Of a stretch of 40,897 bases of DNA, positions 8,192 through 39,523 are shown piece by piece. Under the pieces are notes generated by a model. The model saw only the letters and a list, made by a program, of their open reading frames with translations, searched no databases and had not been told where the DNA came from. The DNA is from Armatimonadota bacterium (GTDB taxonomy: Bacteria; Armatimonadota; UBA5829; DTLH01), in contig JACPPP010000110.1 in NCBI GenBank assembly GCA_016190935.1, positions 1 through 40,897 of the forward strand. Direction: 5' to 3'. Made by a program: the position numbers and the translations under genes. Positions within the stretch are counted from its first letter, which is position 1; each line of letters opens with the position of its first letter.

Positions 8192-8658
8192 TTGCTTCTA
8201 TTCCTTGCGTCGATGCCGAAGAACGTGCGTCCGTTCCAATGGCAGCCGGTGATGGCCTTGGTTGCAGCGGTCAATGATCGATATCGCTTGCCCTGGTATT
8301 CGACCCCTCCAGACACAACGATCACCTCGTAGCGCGCTCCCTTCCATTCCCGGATGAGCTTTGTTCCGATAATGGGCATGTCGTCAGTAGCGCGTCTGCG
8401 CCTGCCGCTCTTCGTCTCAACTCTGATTCCGGTCTCATCATAGCCGTGCTCGATCAATAACTGCCGCAATCGGTCTCTGACAGTTTCCGGCAAGCCCCCG
8501 AAGGTGAACTCCTGGATGCGGTACGCAAGCCTGTTAATGATGAATGTGCGGTTGTAGGTTGGCGGCTCCGAACCAAACATCGTCATGTATAGAGCCTTCA
8601 GATCGTCGTGGCTCAGGCTGTGAAGGTTTGCCATCTGCTGTTGTACTAGGTCCGCCAC
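8188..8658 (-). CDS. DUF2924 protein, recombinase-associated
   Basis: A 156-aa protein starting at GTG 8658, preceded by a strong GAGGAGGT ribosome site at a short 4-nt spacing; the ATG 33 bases upstream has no such site. It matches DUF2924: an N-terminal helical part (ALYMTMFGSEPPTYNRTFIINRLAYRIQE), then the conserved C-terminal block (GTKLIREWKG...YEV...V.YQGKRYRSLTAATKAITG.HWNG..FFGI). DUF2924 genes repeatedly precede serine recombinases, and it may act as a recombination-directionality or accessory factor. That role is not established. It overlaps the recombinase start. Confidence 0.85.
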   Translation of the reverse strand: MADLVQQQMANLHSLSHDDLKALYMTMFGSEPPTYNRTFIINRLAYRIQEFTFGGLPETVRDRLRQLLIEHGYDETGIRVETKSGRRRRATDDMPIIGTKLIREWKGARYEVIVVSGGVEYQGKRYRSLTAATKAITGCHWNGRTFFGIDARNRSK

Positions 8659-22767: not shown

Positions 22768-22833
22768 GGCGCGAAGTGCCTCCCCCGCCCATCTCCGGAT
22801 TGCCGTAACAACTTGAGCGATAGGAACACATTG

Positions 22834-23343
22834 ATGATTGACGAAATGCGAACAGAACAGACAGAGCCTGAGATCGGAGCCAGGGATCGCGATGGGATGG
22901 ACCGCTGGCAGAGGAACACTGAGGCGAAACGCGGTCCCGGCGCTCCCGAGGGCAATACGAACGCCCTGAAGCATGGCATATACGCCGACCGATTCCTCTC
23001 ACCTGAGGAGCGCGTCATCTTCGACGCGATCATCCTGCAGCTTCACCAGGACTTCGTGTTCAACAAGAGCTCGGACTTCATGCAGGTGGAACTGGTGGCG
23101 GTCTACTTCTTGAAGCTGGAGCGTGCGCAGGAGGCAGGCGACTGGGAAGCAGCAGAACGGCTGGACCGGATGATACGCTGCCACCTCAAGGACCTCAAGG
23201 CGACCAAGATCGCGCGTGAGGGTGAGGAGCCGAAGGGTGCAGAGACTACTCCCGCCGAGTGGGCCACTGCGTTACTTGAGAAGCTGGCCGACGCGGAGAA
23301 GAACGCCCGGGCCGGGTCAGAGTCGGAGAAAACGCAGGAATGA
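22834..23343 (+). CDS. Phage terminase small subunit-like protein
   Basis: 169 aa from ATG 22834, behind AGGAA; a TTG at 22813 is an alternative. It has the N-terminal motif GPGAPEGNTNALKHGIYA, which is typical of phage small terminase and packaging-associated HTH proteins, followed by helices and an acidic tail. It should recognise the packaging site and hand DNA to the large subunit. The two terminase genes are unusually separated by a leftward recombinase pair of about 1.5 kb. Confidence 0.7.
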   Translation: MIDEMRTEQTEPEIGARDRDGMDRWQRNTEAKRGPGAPEGNTNALKHGIYADRFLSPEERVIFDAIILQLHQDFVFNKSSDFMQVELVAVYFLKLERAQEAGDWEAAERLDRMIRCHLKDLKATKIAREGEEPKGAETTPAEWATALLEKLADAEKNARAGSESEKTQE

Positions 23344-23543
23344 GTTCGGATAACACCAGTTTGGCTTTGGGGGATCGGCGCGATCCACGCGTGGATTTCC
23401 GACTGAGTGAGAAACTGAGTTCCGATAAGACGTGTTCTCGGAACTTTCTCACTGCCGGAATCCGCCGCTCGGAACAATGGCTGCCGGAAATGCTGGCTGG
23501 GGAAAGGTCGATGAGTGTTCATTTCCCCAGCAGTGAGGGTGAG
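23344..23543. other. Gene-free 200 bp with several inverted repeats, probable recombination region
   Basis: This region contains the 14-bp perfect palindrome ATCCACGCGTGGAT (23383-23396), GGATCG-gcg-CGATCC (23372-23386), the dif-like site at 23418-23445 with flanking GTGAGAAA/TTTCTCAC (23407-23414, 23445-23452), and GCTGGGGAAA/TTTCCCCAGC (23496-23505, 23522-23531). The arm motif recurs with one mismatch at 23343-23353. It lies directly behind the stop of a leftward tyrosine recombinase gene. The last hairpin may also act as a terminator between convergent genes. Confidence 0.55.
23418..23445. other. dif-like core site for a tyrosine recombinase
   Basis: AGTTCCGATAA (23418-23428), the 6-bp spacer GACGTG (23429-23434) and TTCTCGGAACT (23435-23445) give two inverted 11-bp arms, 10 of 11 positions matched, around a 6-bp core. 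This 11-6-11 layout with an inner ATAA is that of Xer/dif sites. The recombinase gene ends 99 bp away. It is a strong candidate for the cognate crossover site. Confidence 0.6.
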
Positions 23544-24461
23544 TCAGATCAGTTCGAGCGCATCCTCCAGCGCCTCGTCAGAGAGGTGCGTGTAGATTTC
23601 AGTCGTCGAGATGTCGCAGTGGCCGAGGGCGCGCTTCACCAGAAGCAGGTCGGAGGTTCTGGCGTAGAGGTGAGTCGCGAAGGTGTGTCGGAGGCCGTGA
23701 GGCGAGATACGCTTTGCGATGCCAGCCGCATCCAGCCAGCGCTTCAGCCGCTGCGCGATCTGCCTGTCGCAGAGCCGAGTCCCTCTGGAGGATACGAACA
23801 GGGCACGACATTCGCCAGTGTCGAGTCTGCGTCGTTCCTGGAGATAGCTCCTCAGCAGAGTGCGGAGAGACGACTTCAGAAACTTGACCTGCGGGATGTT
23901 GCCCTTGCCGGTAATGCGGATGTGCTTGCCGTCGAGGTCAACGTCGTCTATGTCCAGGTTCACCAGTTCCGCGAGCCGAATGCCGGTGCCGAGGAACATC
24001 TCGAAGATGACTCGGTCTCTGCGCGCAATCGGATTGGCGCGGTCATGGAGTTCCTTGAGGAGCCTGCGCTTCTCGGCCTCGGTCAGGAACTCCGGCGGCG
24101 TTCTCGCCAGTCGCTTTGTGGTAACGGTCTTAGCCGGGTTGGTCTCGGTGAGACCACTCTCAGCGGTCCAGGCGAAGAACGAACGGACGACGGCCTTCAG
24201 CCGATGCATTGTTGCCGGGGACTTGGGCGCGGCACCGTCGGAGTACGCGACTACAGGATCGATGAGCGCGGCGTCGATCATCCCAGGCGTGATGCTTCGC
24301 ATACCGTCACTGGGCAGCGCGCGGGCGAAGCATCGCAGGTCACGCAGATAGGCGGAGATGGTATGCTCCGAGCGACCTTGCGCCCGGAGCCTTACCGCGA
24401 AGTTGTCTATCGTCCGTTCGAGGTCGTCAGTCGGCTGCAGCAACCGGATCGGATTCGGCAT
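23544..24461 (-). CDS. Xer-like tyrosine recombinase
   Basis: A 305-aa XerC/XerD-type recombinase, complete. An N-terminal SAM-like core-binding domain (about 15-105) precedes the catalytic domain with Arg162 (GTGIRLAEL), Lys186, His255-x-x-Arg258 (HGLRH), His281 (LGHCD) and the nucleophile Tyr290. Strand exchange at a short site is expected: integration, resolution or inversion. It runs against its phage neighbours, between the two terminase genes, and its start overlaps the upstream core-binding gene by 35 bases. Since the prophage already has a serine integrase, this one may resolve multimers, invert DNA or belong to a second element. Confidence 0.9.
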   Translation of the reverse strand: MPNPIRLLQPTDDLERTIDNFAVRLRAQGRSEHTISAYLRDLRCFARALPSDGMRSITPGMIDAALIDPVVAYSDGAAPKSPATMHRLKAVVRSFFAWTAESGLTETNPAKTVTTKRLARTPPEFLTEAEKRRLLKELHDRANPIARRDRVIFEMFLGTGIRLAELVNLDIDDVDLDGKHIRITGKGNIPQVKFLKSSLRTLLRSYLQERRRLDTGECRALFVSSRGTRLCDRQIAQRLKRWLDAAGIAKRISPHGLRHTFATHLYARTSDLLLVKRALGHCDISTTEIYTHLSDEALEDALELI

Positions 24462-24822
24462 TGCTCACCTCCGGTGTTGCCTTGAGGCTGCGGCCCATGG
24501 GTGTGTCTTTCGGGAGTGGGAGCTTGGGGATGTAGCCCTGTTCCTTTGCCCAGACCAGGAACGTGCGGAAGACGCGGATGGTCTTCTTGACAGTGATCTC
24601 GGAGCGGTCCTTGTCGCCGTGCATCTTGAGGAGCGCGTCCGACTTGAGGAACCCGGATACGTGTGGGATCAGGATCGCCGAGAGCTTCTTGTCGGGACCG
24701 AAGAACGCCTCGACCTGTTCGAGGTCTTTTGAGTAGGTATAGAGCGTGCGTTCGCTCTTGCCCTGGCCCTTGAGATACTCAAGGTGCTCATGGACAGCTT
24801 CGTGAAGTGTCTTTTCCGTCAT
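24427..24822 (-). CDS. Stand-alone core-binding (SAM-like) domain of a tyrosine recombinase
   Basis: 131 aa from ATG 24822, preceded by AGGAGGT; the longer frame from 24876 is rejected. It matches only the N-terminal core-binding domain of phage integrases (HEHLEYLKGQGKSERTLYTYSKDL, then IRVFRTFLVWAKEQGYIPKLPLP) and lacks any catalytic domain. It is co-translated with the full-length recombinase downstream. It could be an accessory arm-binding subunit or architectural factor that pairs with the recombinase at the dif-like site. A truncated relic is less likely because the start, ribosome site and operon overlap are intact. Confidence 0.75.
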   Translation of the reverse strand: MTEKTLHEAVHEHLEYLKGQGKSERTLYTYSKDLEQVEAFFGPDKKLSAILIPHVSGFLKSDALLKMHGDKDRSEITVKKTIRVFRTFLVWAKEQGYIPKLPLPKDTPMGRSLKATPEVSNAESDPVAAAD

Positions 24823-24898
24823 TCTACTACCTCCTGATGGTTGGGTGTTGCATTCACATTCACGCTCAGGTTGCATGTGAAGTCAAGTCATTCTTGCC

Positions 24899-26458
24899 TT
24901 GAATGTGCAGGGAAATGCTGAGGAGAAACGGTTGGGTCGGATAACGTCGGAAGAAGAGAGGCTTGGAATGTCGCTCAGGGACCCTGTCCTGTGGGGCCAG
25001 GGATACTTGTGTAACCGGGACGGCTCTGCTCGCACATACTGGTCGCACCAGGTGGAGGACCTGCAGTGCGAGGACCGGAACATCATCCACCTTGACGGCC
25101 GCGACTCCGGCAAGTCCATATCGCTCACTACTGACGCGCTGCACTTCGCCTTCACCACTCGCGGTGGCCAGGGACTCGTCGCTGCTCCGCACCAGGGACA
25201 CCTCGACACGCTCATTGAGGAGATAGAGTTCCAGATCGATTCCAATCCCGAGCTGACGAGAAGTATCGCCGTCACGAAGTACGGCAAGCCAAAGATATAT
25301 CGCAAGCCTTACTTCCGGCTGGAGTTCACGAATGGCGCGGTCCTCTATTTCCGGCCTGCCGGTGCCTACGGCGACGCGTTCCGGTCACTGCACGTCGAGC
25401 GGGTGTGGGTCGACGAGGGCGCGTGGCTCACCGAGAAGGCGTGGAGGGCGCTTCGGCAGTGCTTGAAAGCTGGAGGGACGCTGCGCATATACTCCACTCC
25501 TAATGGGCTCAGGGACACGACATACTACCGTCTCACCAGCTCGAACCAGTTCAGTGTGTTCCGCTGGCCGTCTTGGCTGAATCCGGACTGGAGCGATGAG
25601 CGCGAGCGGGAACTGCTGGAGTTCTACGGGGGCCGAGACACAGCCGGCTGGCAGCACGAGGTCGCAGGCGAACACGGCAAGCCCTCATACGGTGCGTTCA
25701 ACGTGGAGTACTTGAACCTCTGCAGGCAGGAGGTCCTGGAGTATCGCAGGATTGCGATCACTGGCGAGGACTTGAGTTCGTGCGATACAGAGGAGGAATC
25801 CTACGACCGGCTTGAGATGCTGCTCAACCTGATGCCGCAGACTGGTGTGTTCTGGATAGGCGGCGACCTGGGTTACACCAACGACCCGACTGAGATCGTC
25901 GTGTTCCGGGAGACCGATCTGGGCGAGCGGTCAGTGCTCACACTGGTTGTGCGCATTCACATGGAGCACGTATCTTATCCGCACATCGCTCAGGTCATAT
26001 CGCTCCTGGAGCGTTACTATGCGCCAGTCGGCGTAGGCATTGACAACGGGGGTAACGGTCTCGCGGTCGTCCAAGAGCTTCTAACGCTCGACAAGTATCG
26101 CCCCCTGCAGTTTGAGGCCAGGCTCCGTGGCTACGACTTCGGCGGGGTGACTACTCTGGCTGTCCGGGATGGTCGAGAGGTTCGTAAGCGCACCAAGGAA
26201 CTCATGACCACTCTCATCAACGGCGCGCTGCAGAGGCGTCAAATGATCCTGCCTGCGGACGACTCGGAAATCGAGGACCAGTTCACGACGCACACTTACA
26301 CGCTCTCAAACGGCAACATCATCTATTCCAAGGGCAACGACCACATCATCGACGCGGTCCGCTGTGCGATGCTGGCCCACGAGCAGGCGACCTTGGATAC
26401 GGTGAGCGAGGAGACGGTCTCGGTGATACCAGTGCTGACGAACCCGATTTTCATCTGA
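24899..26458 (+). CDS. Terminase large subunit
   Basis: 519 aa from TTG 24899; ATG 24968 (496 aa, starting MSLRDPVLWGQGY) is perhaps the true start, with GAGAGG before it. This is the DNA-packaging motor, with an ATPase N-terminus: Walker A-type GRDSGKS and Walker B VWVDEGAW. The RNase H-like nuclease half has GGDLGYTNDPTEI, GIDNGGNG and DHIIDAVRC, supplying the acidic metal ligands. It cuts concatemers and pumps DNA into the procapsid through the portal. The start lies just across from the divergent core-binding gene. Confidence 0.93.
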   Translation: MNVQGNAEEKRLGRITSEEERLGMSLRDPVLWGQGYLCNRDGSARTYWSHQVEDLQCEDRNIIHLDGRDSGKSISLTTDALHFAFTTRGGQGLVAAPHQGHLDTLIEEIEFQIDSNPELTRSIAVTKYGKPKIYRKPYFRLEFTNGAVLYFRPAGAYGDAFRSLHVERVWVDEGAWLTEKAWRALRQCLKAGGTLRIYSTPNGLRDTTYYRLTSSNQFSVFRWPSWLNPDWSDERERELLEFYGGRDTAGWQHEVAGEHGKPSYGAFNVEYLNLCRQEVLEYRRIAITGEDLSSCDTEEESYDRLEMLLNLMPQTGVFWIGGDLGYTNDPTEIVVFRETDLGERSVLTLVVRIHMEHVSYPHIAQVISLLERYYAPVGVGIDNGGNGLAVVQELLTLDKYRPLQFEARLRGYDFGGVTTLAVRDGREVRKRTKELMTTLINGALQRRQMILPADDSEIEDQFTTHTYTLSNGNIIYSKGNDHIIDAVRCAMLAHEQATLDTVSEETVSVIPVLTNPIFI

Positions 26459-26579: not shown

Positions 26580-28100
26580 TTGAACAACACCAACTCGGAA
26601 GCTCAAGAGTCCATGGAACAGAACGCTGCATACGGAATTGTGATCCCCGCGCTGGCGGCCGCCGCCGCGCTTGACTCATCCACGTTCAGCAGCATCAATG
26701 CCAACGACGCGATCCCAGCGAATTGGGATGACCGGGCCAGGAAAGCCTGGGAGTATTACGTCGAGGAGCCGCTGGTGAAGAACTGCGTGAACTCCTGGCG
26801 CACATTCGCCGTGGGAGACGAGATCAAGATCACGAGCGACGATGACGCAGTCAAGAGCGAAGCCAATGAGCTTGCCGACCGCCTCGGTGTCTCCGAGTTC
26901 GTGAAAGACATGATCCTCCAGCTTCTGGTCAAGGGCGATGCTGTCGGGTTCAAACGCTACACCAAAAACGGCAAGGACATCGAGGAAGTCACCTGCGTCA
27001 ACCCGATCTCGGTCAAGGTGAAATACGCGCAGGGACAGCTCGTCGAAGTTCGGCAGTATCCTGAAGACAGTCCAACGGCCGGAGAGGGACTTGAGCTGCC
27101 GGTCGAACAGACGCTGCACCTGAAATGGGATGCTCCCGAGTTCTCGCCGCGCGGCAACTCGCTCGTGCTGCCTGCGTTTCAGTCCATCGAACTGCTCCGG
27201 GATTACCGGCGCGCCGAACAAGCCATAGCCAAACGCTGGGCTACGCCATTCCGGCTGCTCAAGGTCGGAGGCGCGTTCGGTCAGAAGATGGTGATGCCCG
27301 ACCAGAAGATGCTTGAGCAGGTCCGCGACATGATCAACAAGATGGACATGAAGAGCGGTCTGGTCGTGCCGTTCTACGTGACTGTCGAGACCCACGGCAC
27401 GGAAGGCCAGGTCCTCAACGTCGAGGACAAGGTCAAAGAGGTCAAGGAAGACATCGTCGTTGCGCTGGGGCTATCGCGTTCTCTTGTCACAGGCGACGGT
27501 CCCAACTTCGCAACAGCGTCGGTCAGCATGCAGAAGATGCTCATCATGATCCGGGAGATAAAGCACGCCGCGCGCACCATTCTCGAATGGATATACGACG
27601 ACTGGCGGGAGCTTGCCGGGCACGCGGGCAAGAGCATCCAGTTCCTCTTCAACGACCTCGACCCGACCGATGCGGTTGATTTCAAGAAGCTCCTCATAGA
27701 GCTATACGACCGCAAGCTGATAAGCCGCTCGTCCCTCCAGCTCAAGATGGACCTCGACCCGGATATCGAGGAGGCCAACCGGCAGAACGAATGCAAGTCC
27801 GTCGATCTGCTCGATGAGAAACAGGTCAAGCCCATCGTCGATATGGTCGTGGCCGGAATCATGAGTGTCGAGACCGCTCAAGAAATGCTTGGTCTTGACC
27901 CGGCGAAGAACCCGGCAGGTTCCAGGTCGGAGGCGGCGTGGGCAGGATTATTCAGTCACGGCGGTCATAGCGGAGAGGTCTGTGACTCCTGCGCATACTT
28001 CGGTGAAGATGACAATCGCTGCAGAGTTACTCAGGCTGAGGTGGCCTTCGATTCCCCGGCGTGCCGGTTCCTCCAGCTCAGGAAGGTCGAGAGCAAGTGA
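26580..28100 (+). CDS. Phage portal protein with Cys-rich C-terminus
   Basis: A 506-aa head-tail connector of the portal family, starting at TTG 26580 behind AGGAGG. The central stretch (PEFSPRGNSLVLPAFQSIEL...RRAEQAIAKRWATPFRLLKVG) and the later VALGLSRSLVTGDGPNFA are typical. The C-terminus is unusual: HGGHSGEVCDSCAYF...CRVTQAEVAFDSPACRFLQL has four cysteines and two histidines in a zinc-knuckle-like arrangement. The 121 bp upstream carry the octamer GCGCGAAC twice (26534 and 26545). The stop overlaps the next start by four bases. Confidence 0.9.
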   Translation: MNNTNSEAQESMEQNAAYGIVIPALAAAAALDSSTFSSINANDAIPANWDDRARKAWEYYVEEPLVKNCVNSWRTFAVGDEIKITSDDDAVKSEANELADRLGVSEFVKDMILQLLVKGDAVGFKRYTKNGKDIEEVTCVNPISVKVKYAQGQLVEVRQYPEDSPTAGEGLELPVEQTLHLKWDAPEFSPRGNSLVLPAFQSIELLRDYRRAEQAIAKRWATPFRLLKVGGAFGQKMVMPDQKMLEQVRDMINKMDMKSGLVVPFYVTVETHGTEGQVLNVEDKVKEVKEDIVVALGLSRSLVTGDGPNFATASVSMQKMLIMIREIKHAARTILEWIYDDWRELAGHAGKSIQFLFNDLDPTDAVDFKKLLIELYDRKLISRSSLQLKMDLDPDIEEANRQNECKSVDLLDEKQVKPIVDMVVAGIMSVETAQEMLGLDPAKNPAGSRSEAAWAGLFSHGGHSGEVCDSCAYFGEDDNRCRVTQAEVAFDSPACRFLQLRKVESK

Positions 28101-31100
28101 ATCTGTCTTCCCCGATGATGTGCGCTGTCGCGGACCTCGACTGGCAGGCCAGGGCGATACGCGAGGCGACTGACAAGAGCCTCATGGCGCGCGACATGTA
28201 TGCCGAACAGGTGGCGTTCCAGCTTACGCAGTCGCTCAAGACCGCGCAGGAGCACGTCCACAAAGCGCTTCTGGGCTACAAGGATGTCGGCTCGCTGCCT
28301 GAGAACAAGCTCGCGGCGGTCAATGGTCTTGAGAAGCTGGACGCGCAAATCCAAGAAGCGATGCGCGCCCTTCGCAAGGGCCAGTCCCTGATGTTCCGCA
28401 AGGCAAGCCGCGCGTCCTTCCGCTCCGGCGTCTATCGCGGGATAGAAGAGTTCGCGACTGCACAAATGCCATTCTACAAAGACCTTACACCAGACGAGAT
28501 CGACAAGGTCACGACGTCGGTGTTCACGCTCATCGACACTGACGCCCTGGACTTCATGGCCAACTACAACCTGGTCCTGGTGGGCGATGTGCACCAGGAG
28601 CTTGCGAGCGGCATCAAACGCACCATCCTTTCCGGGATCACCACAGGCAAGAACGCCCGCGACATCGTTCGAGACATGGGCAGCGTCATCGAGGACAAGG
28701 AGTCCTTCCGGCACGCCGGTACAAAGGTGTTCTCCAAAGCTCAGTACCGGATCGAGATGATAGCGCGCACAGAGGTGCTGCGCGCGCACAACCAGGGGCG
28801 AATCAAGTTCCACCAGCAGGTGGGGGTCACGAAGCTCGAATGGATGACCATGGAGGACGAGCGTGTGTGCCCGGTCTGCGGTGGGCTTGATGGCAAGGTG
28901 TTCGACACCGACCATTTCCCCAGTCAGCCCGCGCATCCAAACTGCCGATGCACGAGTGTTGTCGCGTGGCCGTTAGTCATCTGCGGCGGGGAACTCGGGG
29001 CGACGGCCGCTGTGGGGCAGAGCGCATGCATACTGCCCCCGCAGGCAATACACGACCAGGCAAAGCAGCAGGCCGAGGAAGAGAAGAAACTCAAGGGCGC
29101 ATTTGGGTCCGGTCAGATGGCGGATCTGTCGGGGCTTACGGTGAAGCAGCTCCAGACTCTCGCCAAGGGCAACGGCATTGGGGTTGCCCGCACCAAGACC
29201 GACTTCATCAAGCTCCTCGACGCGGCAGAGCCGGGGATCGGACATGCCGACCTCTCCGGCGCGGCGCTGCAGGCAAAGATCAAGCAATTCAATATCGCGG
29301 CGCTGCGTAGCAAAGACGACCTCACGAAACTGCTCGCCGAGAAGCAGGCCGTCATCAAGCAGGCAAAGGCCCTGGAGGAAGCCGCGAAGAGCGCAGCGCC
29401 TCAGACCGATCTCTCCAGTCTTACCGTGACTCAGCTCAAGGACATGGCCAAGCAGCACGGCGTGTCTCTGAACCTCACGAAGTCCGATGTCATCGAGATG
29501 CTGGACGCGCTTGAGCCGCACATAGACCATTACAACTACTCCGGCAAGACCCTGATCGCCGCCAAGCAGAAGTACGGGATCCCGCCACTCAAGAACAAGC
29601 AGCAGCTCGTGAAAGCCCTGGAAAAAGCGGCGGGCAAGCAGATGGCTGATCAGGTCAAGCAGCAGGCTCTGGACGTGGCGAAGACCGAGGCTCTGAAGAA
29701 AGCCGAGCTTGCCATAAAGGATGCCACAGCGCAGGTGGTGATGCCGTCGTCTCCCGCGCAGTATTCATCGTTCCTCGATTCGGTGAAAGCCGTCGAAGGT
29801 GAACTTGCTAAGGACTCAGGGCTGCCCGCATCGGTTCTTCAAGAGCACGCAAAGGAAGTCGCCGTGAAGAAGCTGGCGTTCCAGCAACAGGTTGCGGCGA
29901 TGAAGTCCGGAGAACTCAAAGACCTAGCGAAGCAGACCAAGGTCACGCACTGGCAGTGGGCCACGAAAGATGAACTGACAACTCTGTTCAGCGAAACCGA
30001 TCCGGGCAAGATTGCGGCGGCCAAAGCAGGCATCGAAGCAAAGCACGCGAAGTGGGCCGAAAAGCACTTGGGGAAGTCCGGCAAGCCCGTGGCGAAGCTG
30101 CCGAGCCCGCCGCCGACTCATCACGCCGTTGAGCACATAACACCGGCGGCCCCCGCATTCACCAAGAAAGGCTCGGAGTTTGACGCTGCCGATGATGCAT
30201 GGAAGTCTGAGGGCAAGCCCGAGAAGTTCAAGTATGAAGGCAAGGCCAAAGTCGGCGGGGCTCATGAGAAGGAGTTCTGGATCGACGAGAACGGCGACAA
30301 GTGGCTATTCAAGCCGGTCGGTAAAGGTAGTGACGACTTCATAGCCCACGGCGAGGAGGCCGCTTACAGGTTGGGCAGGCTCATCGACCCTGACGCCGTG
30401 GAAGTCAGGACAATCCGTATGAACGGTCGCACCGGCTCGATCCAGAAATGGCGCAATGATCTGGCAGCGAAATATGACTTCTCCAGTTTTGATGTAGCCG
30501 ATCTCTCTGCAGATGAGATAGCGCAGGTCCAGCGCGAGCACGTCCTTGACTGGCTTATCTCAAACCATGACGGCCACGCCAAGCAGTTCCTCCGGGCGAA
30601 GAACGGCAAGGTCTACGGCATCGACAAGGGCCAGCTATTCAAGTTCCTGGGTTCGGACAAGCTCTCCGTAGACTATCACCCCAATGGGGTCTGCGGAGAA
30701 AGTGAACCTTTCTACAACACTCTCTTCCGCGCGGCAAAGCAGGGTAAGGTGACGGTCGATCCGTCGACCACTCTGCGCTACATTCGCGAAGTGGAGCGCA
30801 TATCGGACGACGACTACCTCGGACTGCTGCGGCCTTACGTCGAAGGCAAGTTCGGAAGCGACGAGGCCGGTAAGCGGGCGTTCTACGAACTGGCTCTGGC
30901 GCGGAAGCACAACCTGCGCCGGGACTTCGAAGAGTTCTATTCGGATGTCCTCGGAAAGAAGAGGTTCGCATTCGACGACGCGGCAGATATCCCGGCCAAA
31001 GGTCGGATCGGGAAGGCAGAAGAGAAGATCATTGAAGATGCCCGCGTTCTCGGCTGGCAGGGCAAGGCGCTTCCGATAGACGAGGATGACATAGAGGACC

Positions 31101-32674
31101 AGAACGCGCTCATCTTCACCGAGACGGCGAAAGGCCAGCAGCGCACGGTCATCAAGCTCAAGGTCAGGCCGGAGGCAGAGGCAAAGATACTGGCCAAGCT
31201 CCGCAAGGCCACAAAGCAGGTCAGCAAGGTCGGGGAGCGCCTGCCGGAAGACGACTTCGCCGCTGATATCCTCGATGCCGCGAAGAGCGTGAATCACCAC
31301 GCGGGTGATGGCAAGTACAACCAGGCCAAGATTGATAAGGCCGCCGGACACATCAAGGCTCTGAGGCAGCTTGCGAAATCCGATGACCCCGACATCCGTG
31401 AGATGGCCGAGACCTACATCGACTGGGTGGACAGAGTCCAGCAGGCCGCGATTCAAGGCAAGTCTATACCTGAGCGCTTCGAGGGTTATCTGAAGAAGGT
31501 CGTCACCAAGGCCAAGAAGACCGATTCGGACTTCACGGTTCGTAAGACAAAGGTGCTGCTCGAAAAGCGTAGCGTCAGCAAGGGTGACTTATCTGTCGAA
31601 AGCGATGCCGCCGATCTGGACTCCATGTTCGGCGGACGCCACCTATCCGATGGCGAGCAGTATGAGATAGACTTCGGTGACGGCGTCCGCGCGGTCTACC
31701 GCCCGTGGTCATCGAAGAACCTGTATGCGCATTCCGGGGAGTTCGAGATGGTTGTTCCCGACCGGCCCGATGCAAAGAGCCTGGACAGGGCGCTGGAGCG
31801 CATGGAGAAGATAGGGCTGAAGGCTAACGTTGCCACCCCCGAGGATGCGGAGATCCTCTATCTCCACAAGCAGGCATATCTGACAAAGGCCGACAAGTCC
31901 CCGGAATACACGCAGATGGTCTCGTCCCTTGACCAGCGCAACGCGTCCAAGACCGAGCGTGTGCAAAGCATGCGCGCGTTCTGGGAGAAGCGGCTCGGGG
32001 TTTCGGATATCACGAAGACGCCCGGTTATGACCCGGTCGGTGAGTATCAGCTCGGGTTCAAGGACCAGAAGATCACGGGCGGCTACCGCCACCAGTATCG
32101 GTTCGATATCTCTGATGCGGATATGGAGCGCGATATGGCAGGCTACAGCCTACACCACAGCCTGACGAACAGCTCCAGCATGAGCGGGTTCCTCGATGCG
32201 GCTCTGGAGAACAACGGCACCATGATAAGCACGGTCGAGAAGCTCAGGGTCGGGGTGCAGCCGCGCGGCATGTCGCCGGAATCGGACATGAGAAGCGGCG
32301 GCGCGTCTTATGTGTTTACACGAATCAAGAAGTCCCCACTCTCCGGCGCTTCCGGTGAGAACGGGCTCTACTTCAAGAAGCGACTTCTGCGGCGCATGGA
32401 TGCTATTAGCTACAGTCACGACGCCTTTGGCAAGGTTACCGAAGACTATGTGCCCACGCACCGGGGCAGCGATCCCAAGACCTGGAAGACCTATGCGCGC
32501 AACTCAAGCAACGAGACTATCCTCAAACACTCCGTGACGCTGCTTGATAACCTGGAAGCGATAGTGGTGGGAAGCGAGTCCGAGCGGACCAAGGTGCTCG
32601 CGATATTCAAGAAGCACGGCATATCCAAGCTGACCGACGGCCGCAAGGTCGAGGAAATCGTTCTGGTGAGGTGA
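28097..32674 (+). CDS. Giant MuF-type head protein with SAP-like repeats, HipA-like kinase region and C-terminal toxin-like domain
   Basis: 1525 aa from GTG 28097, in the GTGA overlap with portal; an ATG at 28061 lies inside the portal. Residues to about 290 are a phage head-morphogenesis (SPP1 gp7/Mu F) domain ending in CPVCGGLDGKVF...HPNCRC. Three helical repeats resembling SAP/Rho-N modules follow (LSGLTVKQLQTLAK near 343, LSSLTVTQLKDMAK near 438, GELKDLAK near 604). From about 715 to 850 there is a HipA-like kinase region: the ATP-site Lys in KWLFKP (734), the loop DWLISNHDGHAKQF (Asp kept, the usual KN replaced by KQ) and YGIDKGQ. The last about 200 residues (SGGASYVFTR...SNETILKH) resemble an ADP-ribosyltransferase-like layout; this is tentative. 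MuF proteins can carry toxin domains into cells. Confidence 0.75.
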   Translation: MNLSSPMMCAVADLDWQARAIREATDKSLMARDMYAEQVAFQLTQSLKTAQEHVHKALLGYKDVGSLPENKLAAVNGLEKLDAQIQEAMRALRKGQSLMFRKASRASFRSGVYRGIEEFATAQMPFYKDLTPDEIDKVTTSVFTLIDTDALDFMANYNLVLVGDVHQELASGIKRTILSGITTGKNARDIVRDMGSVIEDKESFRHAGTKVFSKAQYRIEMIARTEVLRAHNQGRIKFHQQVGVTKLEWMTMEDERVCPVCGGLDGKVFDTDHFPSQPAHPNCRCTSVVAWPLVICGGELGATAAVGQSACILPPQAIHDQAKQQAEEEKKLKGAFGSGQMADLSGLTVKQLQTLAKGNGIGVARTKTDFIKLLDAAEPGIGHADLSGAALQAKIKQFNIAALRSKDDLTKLLAEKQAVIKQAKALEEAAKSAAPQTDLSSLTVTQLKDMAKQHGVSLNLTKSDVIEMLDALEPHIDHYNYSGKTLIAAKQKYGIPPLKNKQQLVKALEKAAGKQMADQVKQQALDVAKTEALKKAELAIKDATAQVVMPSSPAQYSSFLDSVKAVEGELAKDSGLPASVLQEHAKEVAVKKLAFQQQVAAMKSGELKDLAKQTKVTHWQWATKDELTTLFSETDPGKIAAAKAGIEAKHAKWAEKHLGKSGKPVAKLPSPPPTHHAVEHITPAAPAFTKKGSEFDAADDAWKSEGKPEKFKYEGKAKVGGAHEKEFWIDENGDKWLFKPVGKGSDDFIAHGEEAAYRLGRLIDPDAVEVRTIRMNGRTGSIQKWRNDLAAKYDFSSFDVADLSADEIAQVQREHVLDWLISNHDGHAKQFLRAKNGKVYGIDKGQLFKFLGSDKLSVDYHPNGVCGESEPFYNTLFRAAKQGKVTVDPSTTLRYIREVERISDDDYLGLLRPYVEGKFGSDEAGKRAFYELALARKHNLRRDFEEFYSDVLGKKRFAFDDAADIPAKGRIGKAEEKIIEDARVLGWQGKALPIDEDDIEDQNALIFTETAKGQQRTVIKLKVRPEAEAKILAKLRKATKQVSKVGERLPEDDFAADILDAAKSVNHHAGDGKYNQAKIDKAAGHIKALRQLAKSDDPDIREMAETYIDWVDRVQQAAIQGKSIPERFEGYLKKVVTKAKKTDSDFTVRKTKVLLEKRSVSKGDLSVESDAADLDSMFGGRHLSDGEQYEIDFGDGVRAVYRPWSSKNLYAHSGEFEMVVPDRPDAKSLDRALERMEKIGLKANVATPEDAEILYLHKQAYLTKADKSPEYTQMVSSLDQRNASKTERVQSMRAFWEKRLGVSDITKTPGYDPVGEYQLGFKDQKITGGYRHQYRFDISDADMERDMAGYSLHHSLTNSSSMSGFLDAALENNGTMISTVEKLRVGVQPRGMSPESDMRSGGASYVFTRIKKSPLSGASGENGLYFKKRLLRRMDAISYSHDAFGKVTEDYVPTHRGSDPKTWKTYARNSSNETILKHSVTLLDNLEAIVVGSESERTKVLAIFKKHGISKLTDGRKVEEIVLVR

Positions 32675-33147: not shown

Positions 33148-33485
33148 GGCTTCGATACATGATTGAACACGCGCTTCGGGATCGGGACATGAACCCGCGC
33201 TATGAACCCATCGGCGTTTGGGTTCAGGGTTCCGGCCCAGGGCTGGATATCGTGATGGAATACCTGCCGGGCAATGAGGACGCCCAAGAGGAAGCGGACT
33301 GGGTCATCAACCGCTTGGTGGAGAACGATATCAGGTCCCTGCCGGGTGACTTCCTGGAGTATCACCGGTCCACGATGTCCCCGTATCGCGGCATGCGCGG
33401 AGAGATAGTGGAGACCGAGGAGTATGCGACGGCGGAGGAGTGCGCCGCACGTGTGCTTTCGGGTCTACCAAGACCTCCTACTTAG
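33144..33485 (+). CDS. Unknown 113-aa protein, second small gene behind MuF
   Basis: ATG 33144 overlaps the preceding stop by four bases; a longer frame from 33051 is rejected. It is acidic with a mixed alpha/beta look (ALRDRDMNPRYEPIGVWVQG...EADWVINRLVENDI). No family is recognised. Together with the 156-aa gene it forms a two-gene tail of the MuF transcription unit. Its stop overlaps the end of the convergent AbiEii gene by eight bases, so the insertion of that cassette appears precise. Confidence 0.6.
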   Translation: MRLRYMIEHALRDRDMNPRYEPIGVWVQGSGPGLDIVMEYLPGNEDAQEEADWVINRLVENDIRSLPGDFLEYHRSTMSPYRGMRGEIVETEEYATAEECAARVLSGLPRPPT

Positions 33486-34446
33486 TTTTGTGCTGCCTGA
33501 CATTCAGCGCCTTCCACAATATCCCAGGGTGGATGCTTATCCGTTCCTGCATCTCATGGTCGGCGGTAAGCAGGTCCGGTCGCACATCGCCGTGATCCAG
33601 AATGAGGTCGAGGAATTCTGTCTCGTTGCTCTGAAAGGGAAGGACAGCGCTCAAACCCGCGCGGCACTCGTCGACGAGGCTTTGTGCCCACGTTCTTCGA
33701 TCCGCCACATGCGATAGGGCATCGCTGCGAAGCACCGGTACTAACTGGTTCTCCAAGTCGCCCAGATCGAAACCGACATCATCACTCTTCACAGTGCGCC
33801 AATCCTTCCGGTTGATTGCGCCGTAGACGACGAAGGCCAGTCGCAGCTTGTTGGCATCCAACAAGCCGCATTGAAGAAGGCGGTGTGAGTCGTAAAGGTC
33901 TCTCGCCGCTCGTCGAGACAACAGCGCCGCGAACTTGCCTGCCGTGATCTCATGCACGTCCAGCATGGGTATGCCCGAAGCGGAGTAACTGCCTATTGGA
34001 AACGAGTCCCGGAGCGTTACAGGCCACAAGGGAACGCGGAGCATGAAGTTCAGGTCAAGCTGCAGGATCCCAGTCGGCGTCACCGCGCTCTCATACTGCA
34101 GCCGGAACTTCCCACCAGCATGTTCCGAAGGACTCCTGGTGATGACATAACCTTCGCGTCCGCATATCGCGGCAATAGCTCGTTCAAGTAAAGGTCTATC
34201 CTCTTCCATCGACGCACGGTCTTGGGAACCAACATAGTTCAGGTCGATATCGACTGAGAGGCGAGGAACCTGCAGCAGGAAGAGATTGAGCGCAGTTCCG
34301 CCTTTCAATGCCAGCTTCCCCTTGAGTTGGGGATGTGAGTTCAGCATCTCCAGCAAGGAAAGCAGATGGATAGCTTTCTCTAGTATCTCCGGCCTGAACC
34401 CCGTGGACTCGGACTCAGCAATCAAGCGATCTCTCGAAATCCTCAT
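33478..34446 (-). CDS. AbiEii-type nucleotidyltransferase toxin
   Basis: A 322-aa protein of the AbiEii/MNT family. The nucleotidyltransferase signature KGGTALNLF (48-56) and the metal-binding D-x-D, Asp66 and Asp68 in RLSVDIDLN, are intact, as is the ARDLYDSHRL helix. Such enzymes transfer nucleotides to tRNA 3' ends and stop growth, aborting infection by other phages. The gene overlaps its antitoxin by four bases (ATGA). It sits on the opposite strand within the head-gene cluster, a typical place for a phage-borne anti-competitor cassette. Confidence 0.9.
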   Translation of the reverse strand: MRISRDRLIAESESTGFRPEILEKAIHLLSLLEMLNSHPQLKGKLALKGGTALNLFLLQVPRLSVDIDLNYVGSQDRASMEEDRPLLERAIAAICGREGYVITRSPSEHAGGKFRLQYESAVTPTGILQLDLNFMLRVPLWPVTLRDSFPIGSYSASGIPMLDVHEITAGKFAALLSRRAARDLYDSHRLLQCGLLDANKLRLAFVVYGAINRKDWRTVKSDDVGFDLGDLENQLVPVLRSDALSHVADRRTWAQSLVDECRAGLSAVLPFQSNETEFLDLILDHGDVRPDLLTADHEMQERISIHPGILWKALNVRQHKTK

Positions 34447-35237
34447 TGCTCGTCCCAGTGCCTTTCGACTATGAAGTCCGGCACAACCAGGTTCCAGTCC
34501 TGGAATAACTTACTGTTGCCCTTGTGTGACCGCTCAAGGTAATGAGGTGACTTCGGACACCGGGCCTTGAGGCGTTCCAGGTGAGAAGGATCGACCATCA
34601 ACTGCTCGCGATGCTGATCCAGGAAGAATCCAACCTTGGCAGCGGTAGTGGCATTGTCCAATAGCTCGACGTATTCAACTATCTTGTCCAGATGGTAATA
34701 CTCTACCATCTCCAGTGATCGCCAGACTTCCTCCCAGCCGCCGGAGAGTTCCGGTCTCTGCAACATGTCTACCATGGTCCGCTCCAGGCTTGTCACGCGC
34801 AAGGTTTCACCATGAGATTCGGCATTGTCCACGGCAAATGCCTCCTGGCCTGTGGTAAGCAGAGAGCGAGGAAACAACACTGCCTTGAACGTTTGTCCCT
34901 CGAAGCCGAAGGAATGAACGCGTGAACGAGAGCAGCAGACGTAGTCGTTGCGCAGTGTGTAACCCTTGCCGTGGAATTGAAGCGCTGTGTGATATGCGAG
35001 AACTGCGTCAGGAGCCATTTTCGTGCATATCAGATAAGGGTCGGCGACTACAGGTATACCGGGAGGCGCGCTGAGGTAAAGCCCTTTTCGCACTTGCTTG
35101 ACCCGGCCGGTGTGAAGATAGTACTTGAGCAAGGCTCTCCGTCCGGTCGTCTTGCCTGGACGTTCGCGTGAGTAGAATTCCTCGAAGTCCCGCGAATCGA
35201 ATACCGTCTTTCTGTTCAGAAACATCTGAGCCTTCAT
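34443..35237 (-). CDS. AbiEi-type antitoxin
   Basis: A 264-aa protein of the AbiEi family. An N-terminal winged helix (about 13-60; LLKYYLHTGRVKQVRKGLYL) precedes the C-terminal domain that counters AbiEii. The family represses its own promoter and neutralises the toxin without direct binding (type IV). GAGGAGG precedes the ATG. A 12-bp palindrome lies in the promoter, in line with autoregulation. The pair with AbiEii is complete. Confidence 0.88.
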   Translation of the reverse strand: MKAQMFLNRKTVFDSRDFEEFYSRERPGKTTGRRALLKYYLHTGRVKQVRKGLYLSAPPGIPVVADPYLICTKMAPDAVLAYHTALQFHGKGYTLRNDYVCCSRSRVHSFGFEGQTFKAVLFPRSLLTTGQEAFAVDNAESHGETLRVTSLERTMVDMLQRPELSGGWEEVWRSLEMVEYYHLDKIVEYVELLDNATTAAKVGFFLDQHREQLMVDPSHLERLKARCPKSPHYLERSHKGNSKLFQDWNLVVPDFIVERHWDEQ

Positions 35238-35588: not shown

Positions 35589-35632
35589 GAGAGGTTCCCT
35601 GCCAATGGGAACTGCATGTGTCGGAGTGATTG

Positions 35633-38600
35633 ATGCAGCTTTTCGCCACGGACAATGACCGGCTTGTCTTTCTTCTGGAGACGGACGCCTCGCGTCACCT
35701 GGAGCGGTTGCTCGCTCAGGCGGCAGAGCTCGTCACCGAGGAACTGCCGGAAGACGAGCGTCCGAAATACATAACCAACTACATCGGCTCCAAGCAGAAG
35801 CTCATCGACTGGATCTGGAAGCACACTCCCGAAGGGGTGGATTCGGTCATAGACGCGTTCTCCGGCTCCGGCGTCGTGGCCTACATGTACAAGACCAAGG
35901 GCCTGCGGGTGCTGGCCAACGACCGGCTTCGTTACTCCTACCACGCTGCCCGCGCAATCGTCGAGAACTCAAGCGTCCGGATAAGCGAGGACGAGCTTGC
36001 CGCTCTGCTTGCGGATAATCCAAAGGCTGGGACCTTTGTCCGAGACAACTTCAAAGGGATATTCTTCGCAAGCGGAGTTCACGGTGTCATCGACCAGATC
36101 CGGGCCAGCGCCGACAAGCTGGAGGGCTACAAGAAGGACATCGCGCTCTTCGCGCTCGGTAAGACTTGCATGTCCGGCAAGGGCGGCTTCGGCCACTTCT
36201 CATCCTCGACCGATTACGGAAAGCGCCAGGACACGCCAGAGGAGTTTCGGCAGCGCTTCGCCGATAACATCGCGCGCATCAATGCGCTCATATTCGACAA
36301 CGGCAAGGAGTGCAAGGCATCGAACAAGGACATCAACGAAGTCCTGTCGGAAGCCAAGGTCGACCTTGCCTACTTCGATCCGCCCTATGCCACCGAGTTC
36401 TCCACAACCAACTACGAGAAGAGCTACCACTTCGTCGAAGGTCTCATGACCTACTGGGACGGTCTCACGCTCGTTGAGGATTCCAAGACTCACCACTACG
36501 AGACCGACCACAAGACGGTGACCAAGGCCAACGCGCAGGAGTTCTTCTCGACGTTTCTCACGAACGCGAAGCATATCCCGAACTGGCTCATCTCTTACCG
36601 CGACCATGCCTACCCAAACGAAGGCGAGATGAAGCAGATCATCTCGGCAAGCGGCATGTCGAGCCGGATGCAGTCTCACCAGCACAGGTATCACATCTCA
36701 TCGAAGCATTCCGAGAACTCAGTCGCGATGGAGCATCTCTTCGTGTGCTCTCGCTCAAAGGAGATGAAGAAGGCCGCGAGCCTCTGTCCTGTCTGTTCTC
36801 AGCAGGCAATGGAGGCCGAGGCCATTTGGGACGAGACGGAAAACGAAATCCGCTACCGCGTCCGCGATCCAGAACAGTTCGACCCCGACAGTTTCAGGCG
36901 GAAACCACTCGACGGCGTGAACGGCGTTGCGATCATCGTTGGCAGGCTGAAGAAGGAGAGCGTTCCACAGGGGCGTGACCCGCAGGCGATGGTCCTGCAG
37001 GCATACCGGTTCGCCAAGAAGACGGACAGCAACCCCGAAGGCTGGACAACCGAGAAAGCCAAGGACTGGATAAAGCAGCATGAGCCTGAGGCGTCCAGCG
37101 CAGAGATTCGGATCGAAGAGAACATGCAGGCGCTGGCCCACGCGCCGCTGTCGGACGACCTTGACCTGCTCTGCTGCCAGGCCGGAATGGACCCGGTCAA
37201 GGTGACGGGCTACATGGGCAACAAGTTCGTGATGCTCGGCTGGATAGAGCGGCAGGTCCCCAAGGACGCAAAGACCGTCGTTGACGCGTTCTCCGGCGGG
37301 GCGAATGTCGCCTACCATCTCAAGCGCAAAGGGATGAAGGTCATCGCAAATGACCTGCTGCTCTTCCCATATCATATCGCACGGGCGGTCGTTGAGAACT
37401 CCCGCGAAGTCTTGACTGACGAGGATATAGAGAGGATTCTTTCTCCCAACCCCAACGCGGGCACGTTCATCGTCGACAACTTCAGCGGTTACTACTACAC
37501 CAAGCGGGTGCTCTCCTGGCTTGACCAGGTGTGGGCTAACATCCAGAAGCTTTCCGGCTACAAGAAAGACCTAGCGCTGGGGGCGCTCGGAAACACGGTC
37601 AAGGCTAAGTCTCTCTACGGTCAGTTCCATCGCTCGAAGATCAACCTCAAAGGCGAACTCGGCACGGAAGCCGACGCGGAGATGGAAGCGGATGCTGGTG
37701 GGTTCAAGGAAAGCCAACTCACCAGCATTCCCATCTCCAGCATGGTGGAGAGCTTCAAGCGGTACGCGAACCAGCTTAACCGGCTGGTCTTCGACAACGG
37801 CCAGGAGTGCAAGGCTTTCCATGGCGACGCGGTAGAGGCGGTGCGGAAGTACGGCGCGGACGTGCTGTATCTCGATCCACCCTACATAACGGAGTTCTCG
37901 AACAACGACTACGAGTATTCGTTGCACTTTGTCGAGGGCTTGATGAACCGCTGGGCGGACAAAGAGCTTCTCGACGACAACCGGCGCAGCTACAAGTCGC
38001 GGACTCACTTCGACCGCGAGAGCATCCGCGCTCTTATCGAGAACCTGGCTTCGGAGGCGCGGGGCAAGTACAAGACTGTGATCATGTCCTACCGGGACCA
38101 CGCGTTCCCGACCGAAAAGGAAATCCGCGACATCTTCGCTGAGCGTTTCGGGCAGGTTCGGGTCAAGGGCATGGATGTCGAGTATGGCATCGTCCTCGGC
38201 AAGGGGGGTGAGGGCAAGAACGGGCGCGAGCTTCTATTCGTGGCGTCCAGTTCCAGGCAGGCTCCCAGGTCAATCGCTTCGGCTGGTGTCTCAAACTGCC
38301 ACACTGCTATCCCCGTGGAAGTGAGTCTGAACAACAAGGACGGACTCTCGTCCGAGGCGATTGACCTCAACCCCAACGCTGGCGATCCACAATTCAGCTT
38401 CATCATGTGTCGCGCTGGCACGAACAAGAACGGCGACCACTTCACCCCGGACGAACTCGCCGCACGCTACACCACGGCCATAAACAGGAAGATCGACCTC
38501 AAACACTCCCAGGAACTCACGGACATCGTGGGCGGCATAGTCGCGGCCGAGTTTGTCGAGGACGAGACCGGCGGGCGCGTCGAGTGCGTAGGCGAGCTTT

Positions 38601-39523
38601 ATGCGGCGGAAGCCCCAACCGCCGCGCTCGCCTACAAGCTCATGAAGAAGGGCATCATCTCCCAGGTCTCGATGGAGTGTGACTACGAGTCCGGAGAGTG
38701 CTCGATTTGCGGGAAGACTGTGAGCAACAAGAACGACTACTGCGTGCATCTGAGAAAGTCCAAGGGCTCGGAGTATCAGGGCAAGCCGGTATTCGAGATA
38801 CTGCACGGCGTCACATTCACCGGCCTTGGGCTTCTGGACCGCAAAGGAGCCGACGATAACGCGCGGATAACTCAGGTCGCCTCGGACAAGACGGGGCAGG
38901 CAGAAGATACAAACTCAGGAGGCACCTCATTGGAAGACGTTAAGAACGAACACGAGACCGACGAGCAGCGTGAAGAAGCTGCAAAGAAGAAAGACGCTCC
39001 CGGCGGCGGGGCCGCTCCTCCGGTCGACGACAAGACCCGGGTGAAGGAGCTTGAAGCGGAGAACAAGGACCTCAAGAACCAGGTTCTGGAGCTTCAGAAG
39101 CAGGTCCAGGAACTCGAGGCGACAAGCAAAGCCGCCGCGAACAAGGCGCGTGCGCAGAAGCTTCTGAGGAAGCTGGAGAAGGCGGGAATGTCCTTTGCCT
39201 CTGACGAGGACAAGGACCAAGAACTGAACCGTCTTGCCGGACTTTCGGACGATGCGTTCGCCGCGACCGAGGCTGCCTATGACAAGGCCATCCAGTCAAA
39301 GTCCGAGTGTCCGAATGCCGGGAAGCAGGACGGGGACAAGGATGCCGGTGATAGGGAGAATTCTGCTTCCGCTTCGACGGATCGACAGATGCGCTCGCAC
39401 GCGGACGTGCGACCCGCCGATGTCGACGACAAGAAGCTCTCCCTTGAGGACAAGCTTCGCGACGGATTCATGACTGCCTACCGTGAGCGAGTCGGTCTCG
39501 CTGGCGCGGGCAAGAGCAACTAA
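35633..39523 (+). CDS. Fusion of two D12-type adenine methyltransferase domains, XkdF-like domain, prohead protease and scaffold
   Basis: 1296 aa from ATG 35633 (GGAG 6 nt upstream; TTG 35630 is an alternative). Domain 1 (about 45-375) is a Dam/D12-class N6-adenine methyltransferase: NYIGSKQKL, DAFSGSG (75-81) and DPPY near 250. Domain 2 (about 520-860) repeats this: GYMGNK, DAFSGGANVAY near 552 and DPPY near 748; its AdoMet motif is altered. Between them lie a CPVC motif and an XkdF-like domain (VRDPEQFDPDSFRRKPL, then IIVGRLKKES). From about 915 follows a capsid protease with His near 959 (LKHSQ), Ser near 1015 (SQVSMECDY) and a CSIC zinc knuckle. The tail is coiled-coil scaffold (about 1137-1170). 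All motifs look intact; a fusion of methylase and maturation protease is exceptional. Confidence 0.85.
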   Translation: MQLFATDNDRLVFLLETDASRHLERLLAQAAELVTEELPEDERPKYITNYIGSKQKLIDWIWKHTPEGVDSVIDAFSGSGVVAYMYKTKGLRVLANDRLRYSYHAARAIVENSSVRISEDELAALLADNPKAGTFVRDNFKGIFFASGVHGVIDQIRASADKLEGYKKDIALFALGKTCMSGKGGFGHFSSSTDYGKRQDTPEEFRQRFADNIARINALIFDNGKECKASNKDINEVLSEAKVDLAYFDPPYATEFSTTNYEKSYHFVEGLMTYWDGLTLVEDSKTHHYETDHKTVTKANAQEFFSTFLTNAKHIPNWLISYRDHAYPNEGEMKQIISASGMSSRMQSHQHRYHISSKHSENSVAMEHLFVCSRSKEMKKAASLCPVCSQQAMEAEAIWDETENEIRYRVRDPEQFDPDSFRRKPLDGVNGVAIIVGRLKKESVPQGRDPQAMVLQAYRFAKKTDSNPEGWTTEKAKDWIKQHEPEASSAEIRIEENMQALAHAPLSDDLDLLCCQAGMDPVKVTGYMGNKFVMLGWIERQVPKDAKTVVDAFSGGANVAYHLKRKGMKVIANDLLLFPYHIARAVVENSREVLTDEDIERILSPNPNAGTFIVDNFSGYYYTKRVLSWLDQVWANIQKLSGYKKDLALGALGNTVKAKSLYGQFHRSKINLKGELGTEADAEMEADAGGFKESQLTSIPISSMVESFKRYANQLNRLVFDNGQECKAFHGDAVEAVRKYGADVLYLDPPYITEFSNNDYEYSLHFVEGLMNRWADKELLDDNRRSYKSRTHFDRESIRALIENLASEARGKYKTVIMSYRDHAFPTEKEIRDIFAERFGQVRVKGMDVEYGIVLGKGGEGKNGRELLFVASSSRQAPRSIASAGVSNCHTAIPVEVSLNNKDGLSSEAIDLNPNAGDPQFSFIMCRAGTNKNGDHFTPDELAARYTTAINRKIDLKHSQELTDIVGGIVAAEFVEDETGGRVECVGELYAAEAPTAALAYKLMKKGIISQVSMECDYESGECSICGKTVSNKNDYCVHLRKSKGSEYQGKPVFEILHGVTFTGLGLLDRKGADDNARITQVASDKTGQAEDTNSGGTSLEDVKNEHETDEQREEAAKKKDAPGGGAAPPVDDKTRVKELEAENKDLKNQVLELQKQVQELEATSKAAANKARAQKLLRKLEKAGMSFASDEDKDQELNRLAGLSDDAFAATEAAYDKAIQSKSECPNAGKQDGDKDAGDRENSASASTDRQMRSHADVRPADVDDKKLSLEDKLRDGFMTAYRERVGLAGAGKSN
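38930..39523 (+). CDS. Internal in-frame start: separate scaffolding protein
   Basis: Inside the fusion gene, AGGAGG (38917-38922) is followed 7 nt later by TTG 38930, in the same frame at residue 1100. This would yield a 197-aa protein comprising only the acidic linker, the coiled coil (VKELEAENKDLKNQVLELQK) and the C-terminal capsid-binding tail. The arrangement is that of lambda C/Nu3, where the scaffold is translated from an internal start of the protease gene. The strong ribosome site in mid-gene is direct evidence; use of a TTG start fits TTG starts at the portal and capsid genes. Confidence 0.65.
   Translation: MEDVKNEHETDEQREEAAKKKDAPGGGAAPPVDDKTRVKELEAENKDLKNQVLELQKQVQELEATSKAAANKARAQKLLRKLEKAGMSFASDEDKDQELNRLAGLSDDAFAATEAAYDKAIQSKSECPNAGKQDGDKDAGDRENSASASTDRQMRSHADVRPADVDDKKLSLEDKLRDGFMTAYRERVGLAGAGKSN

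Follow-up and report, generated by a model that had tools for sequence, protein, structure and literature searches.

A conserved Xer-type recombinase, lone core-binding domain and two-part site between the terminase genes of a temperate phage family: a probable phage-borne resolution module

Why should a prophage that has a large serine integrase keep, in addition, an Xer-like tyrosine recombinase with a dif-like site at its side between its terminase genes? Several groups of phages carry an Xer-like recombinase of unexplained role in the virion gene block besides their integrase, the Tyroviruses being the published example. In the window, by which we mean the whole stretch of 40,897 nt of DNA that was analysed, the genes for the small (TerS, 22813-23343) and large (TerL, 24899-26458) subunits of the terminase are both on the forward strand. 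Between them, on the reverse strand, are the recombinase TyrR (23544-24461) and a small gene, SAM (24427-24822), which overlaps the start of TyrR. The site occupies the gap of about 200 bp between the convergent TerS and TyrR genes.

TyrR is an XerC/D-like tyrosine recombinase of 305 aa with a core-binding and a catalytic domain. Its match to the Phage_integrase family PF00589 (E-value 1.3e-40) places it among the tyrosine recombinases and the site is conserved together with it, which bears out the original prediction that a tyrosine recombinase adjoins the site. Residues R162, K186, H255, R258, H281 and Y290 are invariant across 16 homologues and, judged by these active-site residues, TyrR is catalytically complete. 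It scores 222.6 bits against the NCBIfam XerC model (cut-off 335.2) and 203.5 bits against the XerD model (cut-off 329.6) and so is an equivalog of neither, lying below all NCBIfam Xer cut-offs. The TyrR family is monophyletic with 100/100 support and separate from the cellular Xer proteins; among solved structures, TyrR is closest to XerD. A search for the family in the reference genomes of 84,980 species recovered only cellular Xer proteins (33-39 % identity), and among sequenced phage isolates no close relative above 60 % was found.

The small gene next to TyrR had been taken for a core-binding protein, and its predicted fold and profile comparison make it look like one. The longest open reading frame starts at 24876; the ATG at 24822 is the conserved start and has a good ribosome-binding site. 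The folded part of the predicted structure (pLDDT about 90) matches core-binding domains of integrases, and profile comparison relates SAM to the N-terminal domain of TyrR, the protein being a free-standing core-binding (SAM-like) domain without a catalytic domain. Such a domain, alone and partnering a full recombinase, is unusual. Wherever a locus extends far enough, SAM is present beside TyrR. A second gene for a lone SAM-like core-binding domain is found elsewhere in the same genome (L277, 7067-7516, contig C328), where it adjoins a serine integrase and a primase; neither TyrR nor the site was found on that stretch.

The 11-6-11 site that had been predicted at 23418-23445 is present as described. 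On the forward strand its 28 bp read AGTTCCGATAA-GACGTG-TTCTCGGAACT, and from the strand of the recombinase AGTTCCGAGAA-CACGTC-TTATCGGAACT, the arms being complementary at 10 of 11 positions. Two imperfect 11-bp arms around a 6-bp centre constitute the layout of a dif-type site, and many family members show the dif-typical inner ends ATAA/TTAT; its location, however, is not the chromosomal terminus of a dif site but a prophage, between TerS and TerL. When the 201-bp intergenic region is shuffled with its dinucleotides preserved, inverted repeats of this kind (11-6/7/8-11 with at least 10 of 11 matches) arise in 0.3 % of cases. Since the window as a whole holds six of them against 1.4 expected, the inverted repeat by itself is weak evidence. 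It is evolutionary conservation, far above chance, that argues decisively for a real site: the 11-6-11 core and an accessory arm can be read directly in about 40 loci.

The strongly conserved core arm is the TTATCGGAACT half. The left core arm is degenerate, with unrelated sequence in its place in three loci (L053, L272 and L027), and the central hexamer is variable (CACGTC, CAGGTA, CAGGGG, CATGAG, CATGCC, TACGTC and others). One relative (L244, with a TyrR of 45 % identity) has no recognisable site, and L008 (4900-5125) and L009 have a core that is turned round with respect to the accessory arm, with a centre of 7 bp (GATAA-GTAGGTG-TTCTC). Three further half-arms TTATCNGAA were seen away from the site, at window positions 8364, 31486 and 35353.

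An extra arm with one mismatch had been proposed at 23343-23353, and it proves to be a real accessory arm (AGTTCGGATAA on the forward strand), kept at a fixed spacing across relatives. Its first base is also the final one of the TerS stop codon; it has the orientation of the conserved core arm and lies 75 bp from it. In relatives it always reads GTGTTATC.. or near it, and in almost all loci of the family (about 40) the two arms are 75 or 76 bp apart; a core with adjacent accessory DNA at a fixed spacing is the layout of cer and psi. In the most distant clade (L062/L063) the spacing is 96 bp, that is, two helical turns more, and both arms have changed together to another sequence (AAATGCGACG and AAATCTGACG). 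A scan for the two-part motif, in which only the DNA of 2.9 million viral contigs was used and 11 spacings were allowed, gave 29 matches. Twenty-eight of them fall in the TyrR phage family, all at 75 or 76 bp, and the remaining one, spaced at 81 bp and without any module genes, is a chance match. The accessory arm matches the conserved core arm at a mean of 5.55 of 7 variable positions against 4.75 (sd 0.15) on shuffling, none of 5000 shuffles being as high, and co-variation between the left and right core arms is weaker (p 0.003), both being statistics that ignore kinship.

The original prediction saw in the gap a complete recombination site with accessory sites. The recombinase module, the 11-6-11 core and one true accessory arm stand; a weaker arm near 23467, the hairpin and a CATTGTT element fall away. 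The claimed 14-bp inverted repeat and the hairpin are both real as sequence. The former is a perfect palindrome (ATCCACGCGTGGAT, 23383-23396) within the 75-bp spacer, of which CACGCGTG is retained in the closer clade and missing from others, and it is possibly the site of an accessory protein. The hairpin, GCTGGGGAAA(16 nt)TTTCCCCAGC (23496-23531), has perfect 10-bp arms, lies between the site and the recombinase gene and is kept only in close relatives without an insertion at that place. The weaker arm (CGCTCGGAACA, about 8 of 11 positions) exists, but relatives do not keep it as an arm; in that region only an overlapping AACAATG recurs, in the closer clade. Read on the reverse strand this is the CATTGTT element (23473-23479), which lies on the recombinase side of the core, overlaps part of the weak arm and is conserved in the closer clade only. 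As the hairpin and CATTGTT are absent from several relatives, they are dispensable for the basic module.

An inverted repeat between the convergent TerS and TyrR genes could also be a bidirectional transcription terminator or an RNA hairpin, and a 54-nt region indeed folds well on both strands (z -3.7 and -4.0). However, a T run is absent and no terminator is predicted at the site, left-right pairing (4.86 of 7) is weaker than the direct-repeat similarity of the right arm and the accessory arm, and several relatives have other sequence in place of the left arm. This explanation is very unlikely, and we have rejected it.

Viral contigs were searched with TyrR, SAM and TerS. The order of a forward TerS, the site, the reverse genes TyrR and SAM and a forward TerL is kept in all of the approximately 50 contigs that encode a TyrR at least 39 % identical and reach the junction, and also in five prophages from genomes of the host's order. 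Among TerS relatives with enough downstream sequence, none is without TyrR and SAM; where exceptions seem to occur, the sequence ends early or inserted toxin-antitoxin genes occupy the place. At the level of sequence, TyrR, SAM, the core site and the phased accessory arm are shown to form one conserved unit between TerS and TerL.

Several relatives have foreign genes between TyrR and the site. In some of these loci the left arm has been replaced up to the core, with the right arm, spacer and accessory arm kept; identity breakpoints between relatives reveal such replaced left flanks in L053/L055 and L272. In L053 (5107-6039), and likewise in L055, an ORF with a weak match to endonucleases of the MTES_1575/DUF559 type is inserted exactly at the core in place of the left arm, and it looks like a homing-type insertion that targets the conserved site. 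A Fic/Doc-type toxin and a partner gene lie between TyrR and the site in L194 (6729-7388), where the site stays with TerS, and such a pair is also inserted after the TyrR stop in L002 and L003. No hybrid second site was found flanking the inserted genes and, given this and the endonuclease-like nature of one insert, the breakpoints are no proof of TyrR activity.

The arms might, instead, serve TerS/TerL as a packaging signal (pac or cos), with the recombinase as a mere neighbour. Pac sites are commonly located in or near terS, and the right half and the accessory arm remain by TerS when foreign genes part TyrR from them (L003, L194 and L053). Nevertheless the motif has the palindromic 11-6-11 form of Xer sites and its hexamer varies, and the constant company of TyrR and SAM downstream of TerS also argues against a mere neighbour. 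We consider a pure packaging signal unlikely; a joint role, with the recombination site placed at pac, may apply.

Whether TyrR integrates the phage is a more obvious question, for PHROGs annotates it as an integrase and one intact site beside its gene resembles an attP. Moreover, the Fic/Doc-type toxin pair, the MTES_1575/DUF559-like endonuclease and another ORF have been inserted repeatedly on the recombinase side of the core, as might be seen if the site were the attP of TyrR-driven or cassette integration with an attB partner in the host. However, the prophages are already integrated, and an attP would by then be split into attL and attR, whereas the 28-bp site is whole and internal. It lies 15 kb further in than a large serine integrase of the same prophage (6806-8191, reverse strand), which adjoins host genes (aspS, hisS and others). 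Nearly all relatives carry a separate serine integrase: large ones were found in 11 of 14 related viral records, a twelfth having another tyrosine integrase, and serine integrases in all five prophages of the host's order, on the same contig and 16-23 kb from the module in four of them and on another contig in the fifth.

A second copy of the site had been expected in host or phage, and this expectation failed. None was found in the own genome with up to 3 mismatches, and in the related phage records whose site fits the search pattern it occurs once per phage, the two copies in one 83-kb record belonging to two tandem prophages. A single-copy site is what multimer resolution or circularisation would lead one to expect, so the missing second site counts only against integration or inversion. 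For integration it adds to the absence of hybrid sites around the inserted genes. With an intact, internal, single-copy site and a separate serine integrase, the view of the site as the attP of TyrR is already largely refuted, and we have rejected it as highly unlikely. The serine integrase at 6806-8191 is likely to be the integration enzyme, outside the resolution module. One viral record (G004; L024, L027 and L045) contains two different prophages of the family in a tandem arrangement, at a distance of about 51 kb; each has a TyrR module and a serine integrase of its own, and the core hexamer is CAGGGG in both.

The dif-like layout, together with the Xer-like genes that the host has of its own, raises the alternative that host XerC/XerD use the site, as at plasmid cer/psi or in phage CTX. 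The dedicated phage recombinase beside the site argues against such use. Pattern counts for a host dif did not exceed those of the control, and the two leading host dif candidates, both weak, differ from the site in arms and hexamers. We give this alternative hardly any credence.

TyrR and SAM could also be DNA-binding regulators, with the arms as operators for terminase expression or for the choice between lysis and lysogeny. MrpR of SPbeta offers a precedent, a protein with the fold of tyrosine recombinases whose phage uses a serine recombinase for integration (PMC10516654). TyrR and SAM oppose the direction of TerS and TerL, and the window has a few additional half-arms (5 of TTATCNGAA against 0.6 expected). 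However, MrpR has lost its catalytic residues and binds many operators (PMC10516654), whereas TyrR keeps all six residues in every homologue and has one site. The complete site, moreover, occurs once per genome and lies between convergent gene ends, not at promoters. As the catalytic residues are conserved and the site is unique, a regulatory role is the less likely, and we regard it as rather improbable.

We consider it reasonably probable that the locus is a phage-encoded, single-recombinase resolution module of Xer type, which would act on site copies in multimers or terminally redundant DNA to give monomeric circles. Like Cre/lox, it combines one site per phage genome with a phage-encoded recombinase. 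TyrR would bind both core arms and the TerS-side arm, and SAM would join it on the DNA as a non-catalytic partner or an architectural subunit, which may occupy either the degenerate left arm or the accessory arm. The spacing of 75 bp, about seven helical turns, would let the accessory arm fold back on the core to form a synapse, within which two copies of the site in the same orientation would undergo strand exchange by TyrR at their 6-bp cores. Paired copies are expected only where phage genomes are multimeric, prophages lie in tandem or the linear DNA is terminally redundant, and recombination between them would yield a monomeric circle. The accessory arm could confer a single direction on the reaction, like the accessory DNA at cer and psi (PMC5357621). 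If the site lies within the terminal redundancy of the packaged DNA, recombination could circularise that DNA after injection, as lox does in P1. As the site is beside TerS, where pac sites often lie, it may sit in the terminal redundancy; this position suggests a P1-like circularisation, which is the least certain step of the proposal.

Certain observations count against a resolution module, namely the degeneracy and replacement of the left arm, the relative that has no site (L244) and the flipped core of L008/L009. In addition, the phage carries a probable homologous-recombination cluster (AAA_24), which could circularise its DNA unaided. More tentatively, the locus is possibly a two-protein Xer system, comprising a recombinase and an empty core-binding partner, that is positioned at the packaging origin of a temperate phage and couples circularisation or monomerisation to the terminase, with the phased arm at the TerS stop. 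To our knowledge, no described phage system combines a full recombinase, a core-binding-only partner, a packaging origin and a phased accessory arm.

The resolution module thus proposed can be set against known systems. In P1, lox lies near pac. In Cre/loxP of P1, too, one site serves a tyrosine recombinase that the phage itself encodes, and genome dimers are resolved there (PMC8138268, PMC10999674); however, lox has a 13-8-13 layout and works without an accessory arm, the P1 prophage is a plasmid while the TyrR phage integrates by a serine integrase, and TyrR resembles Xer, not Cre. XerH/difH and XerS/difSL consist of one recombinase and an 11-6-11-type site next to its gene, with unequal half-sites; for XerH/difH, the site is kept beside the gene and its two half-sites are bound unequally (PMC5357621). 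These systems, in contrast, are chromosomal, FtsK-dependent and without an accessory arm, and the XerH/XerS proteins have about 355 aa against the 305 aa of TyrR. ColE1 cer and pSC101 psi share a core of 28-30 bp with adjacent accessory DNA that gives directional resolution (PMC5357621), but they depend on host XerC/D with ArgR, PepA or ArcA, whereas here the phage encodes both the recombinase and the candidate helper, and its accessory arm is similar to the core arm.

In TnpS/TnpT with rst of Tn4651-type transposons, too, a tyrosine recombinase has a helper protein dedicated to it, and the site contains two pairs of repeats; however, the helper has no homology to recombinases, the genes are divergent with the site between them, and the system acts on transposon cointegrates and not on phage DNA (PMC7157771). 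The nearest published case is gp50 of the Tyroviruses (Bacillus phages Thrax1 etc.), an XerC/D-like recombinase encoded among the virion and packaging genes and directly followed by an inverted-repeat site of 11-6-11 layout, the same phage having other recombinases as well (PMC9703825); the likeness to TyrR is one of layout and description. The site is a putative attP, and the authors doubt lysogeny (PMC9703825). Unlike TyrR, which lies between TerS and TerL, gp50 is located between neck and tape-measure genes and is reported without a core-binding partner protein or a fixed accessory arm, and the Tyroviruses are large (~160-170 kb) with direct terminal repeats (PMC9703825). We propose that the TyrR module works like Cre/lox, XerH/difH or cer and yet belongs to none of them, since its layout is not Cre-like, it lies below the Xer cut-offs, it is not chromosomal and it has no known dependence on a host helper.

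Deep conservation defines the site, a probable helper and their geometry, and thereby makes the role of such second recombinases testable. If the proposal is true, integrating phages would also use site-specific recombination at the packaging locus, and the module would provide a recombinase that is compact, perhaps directional and equipped with an accessory arm of its own.

Three other features of the window were noticed. An ORF of 1297 aa (window 35630-39523), which sits just before capsid-like genes, contains two stretches of D12-type adenine methyltransferase followed by other sequence, an unusual fusion. A Mu-F-type head protein of 1537 aa (window 28061-32674) has a very long C-terminal extension, and an AbiEii/AbiEi-like toxin-antitoxin pair (window 33478-35237) lies on the reverse strand within the late gene block.
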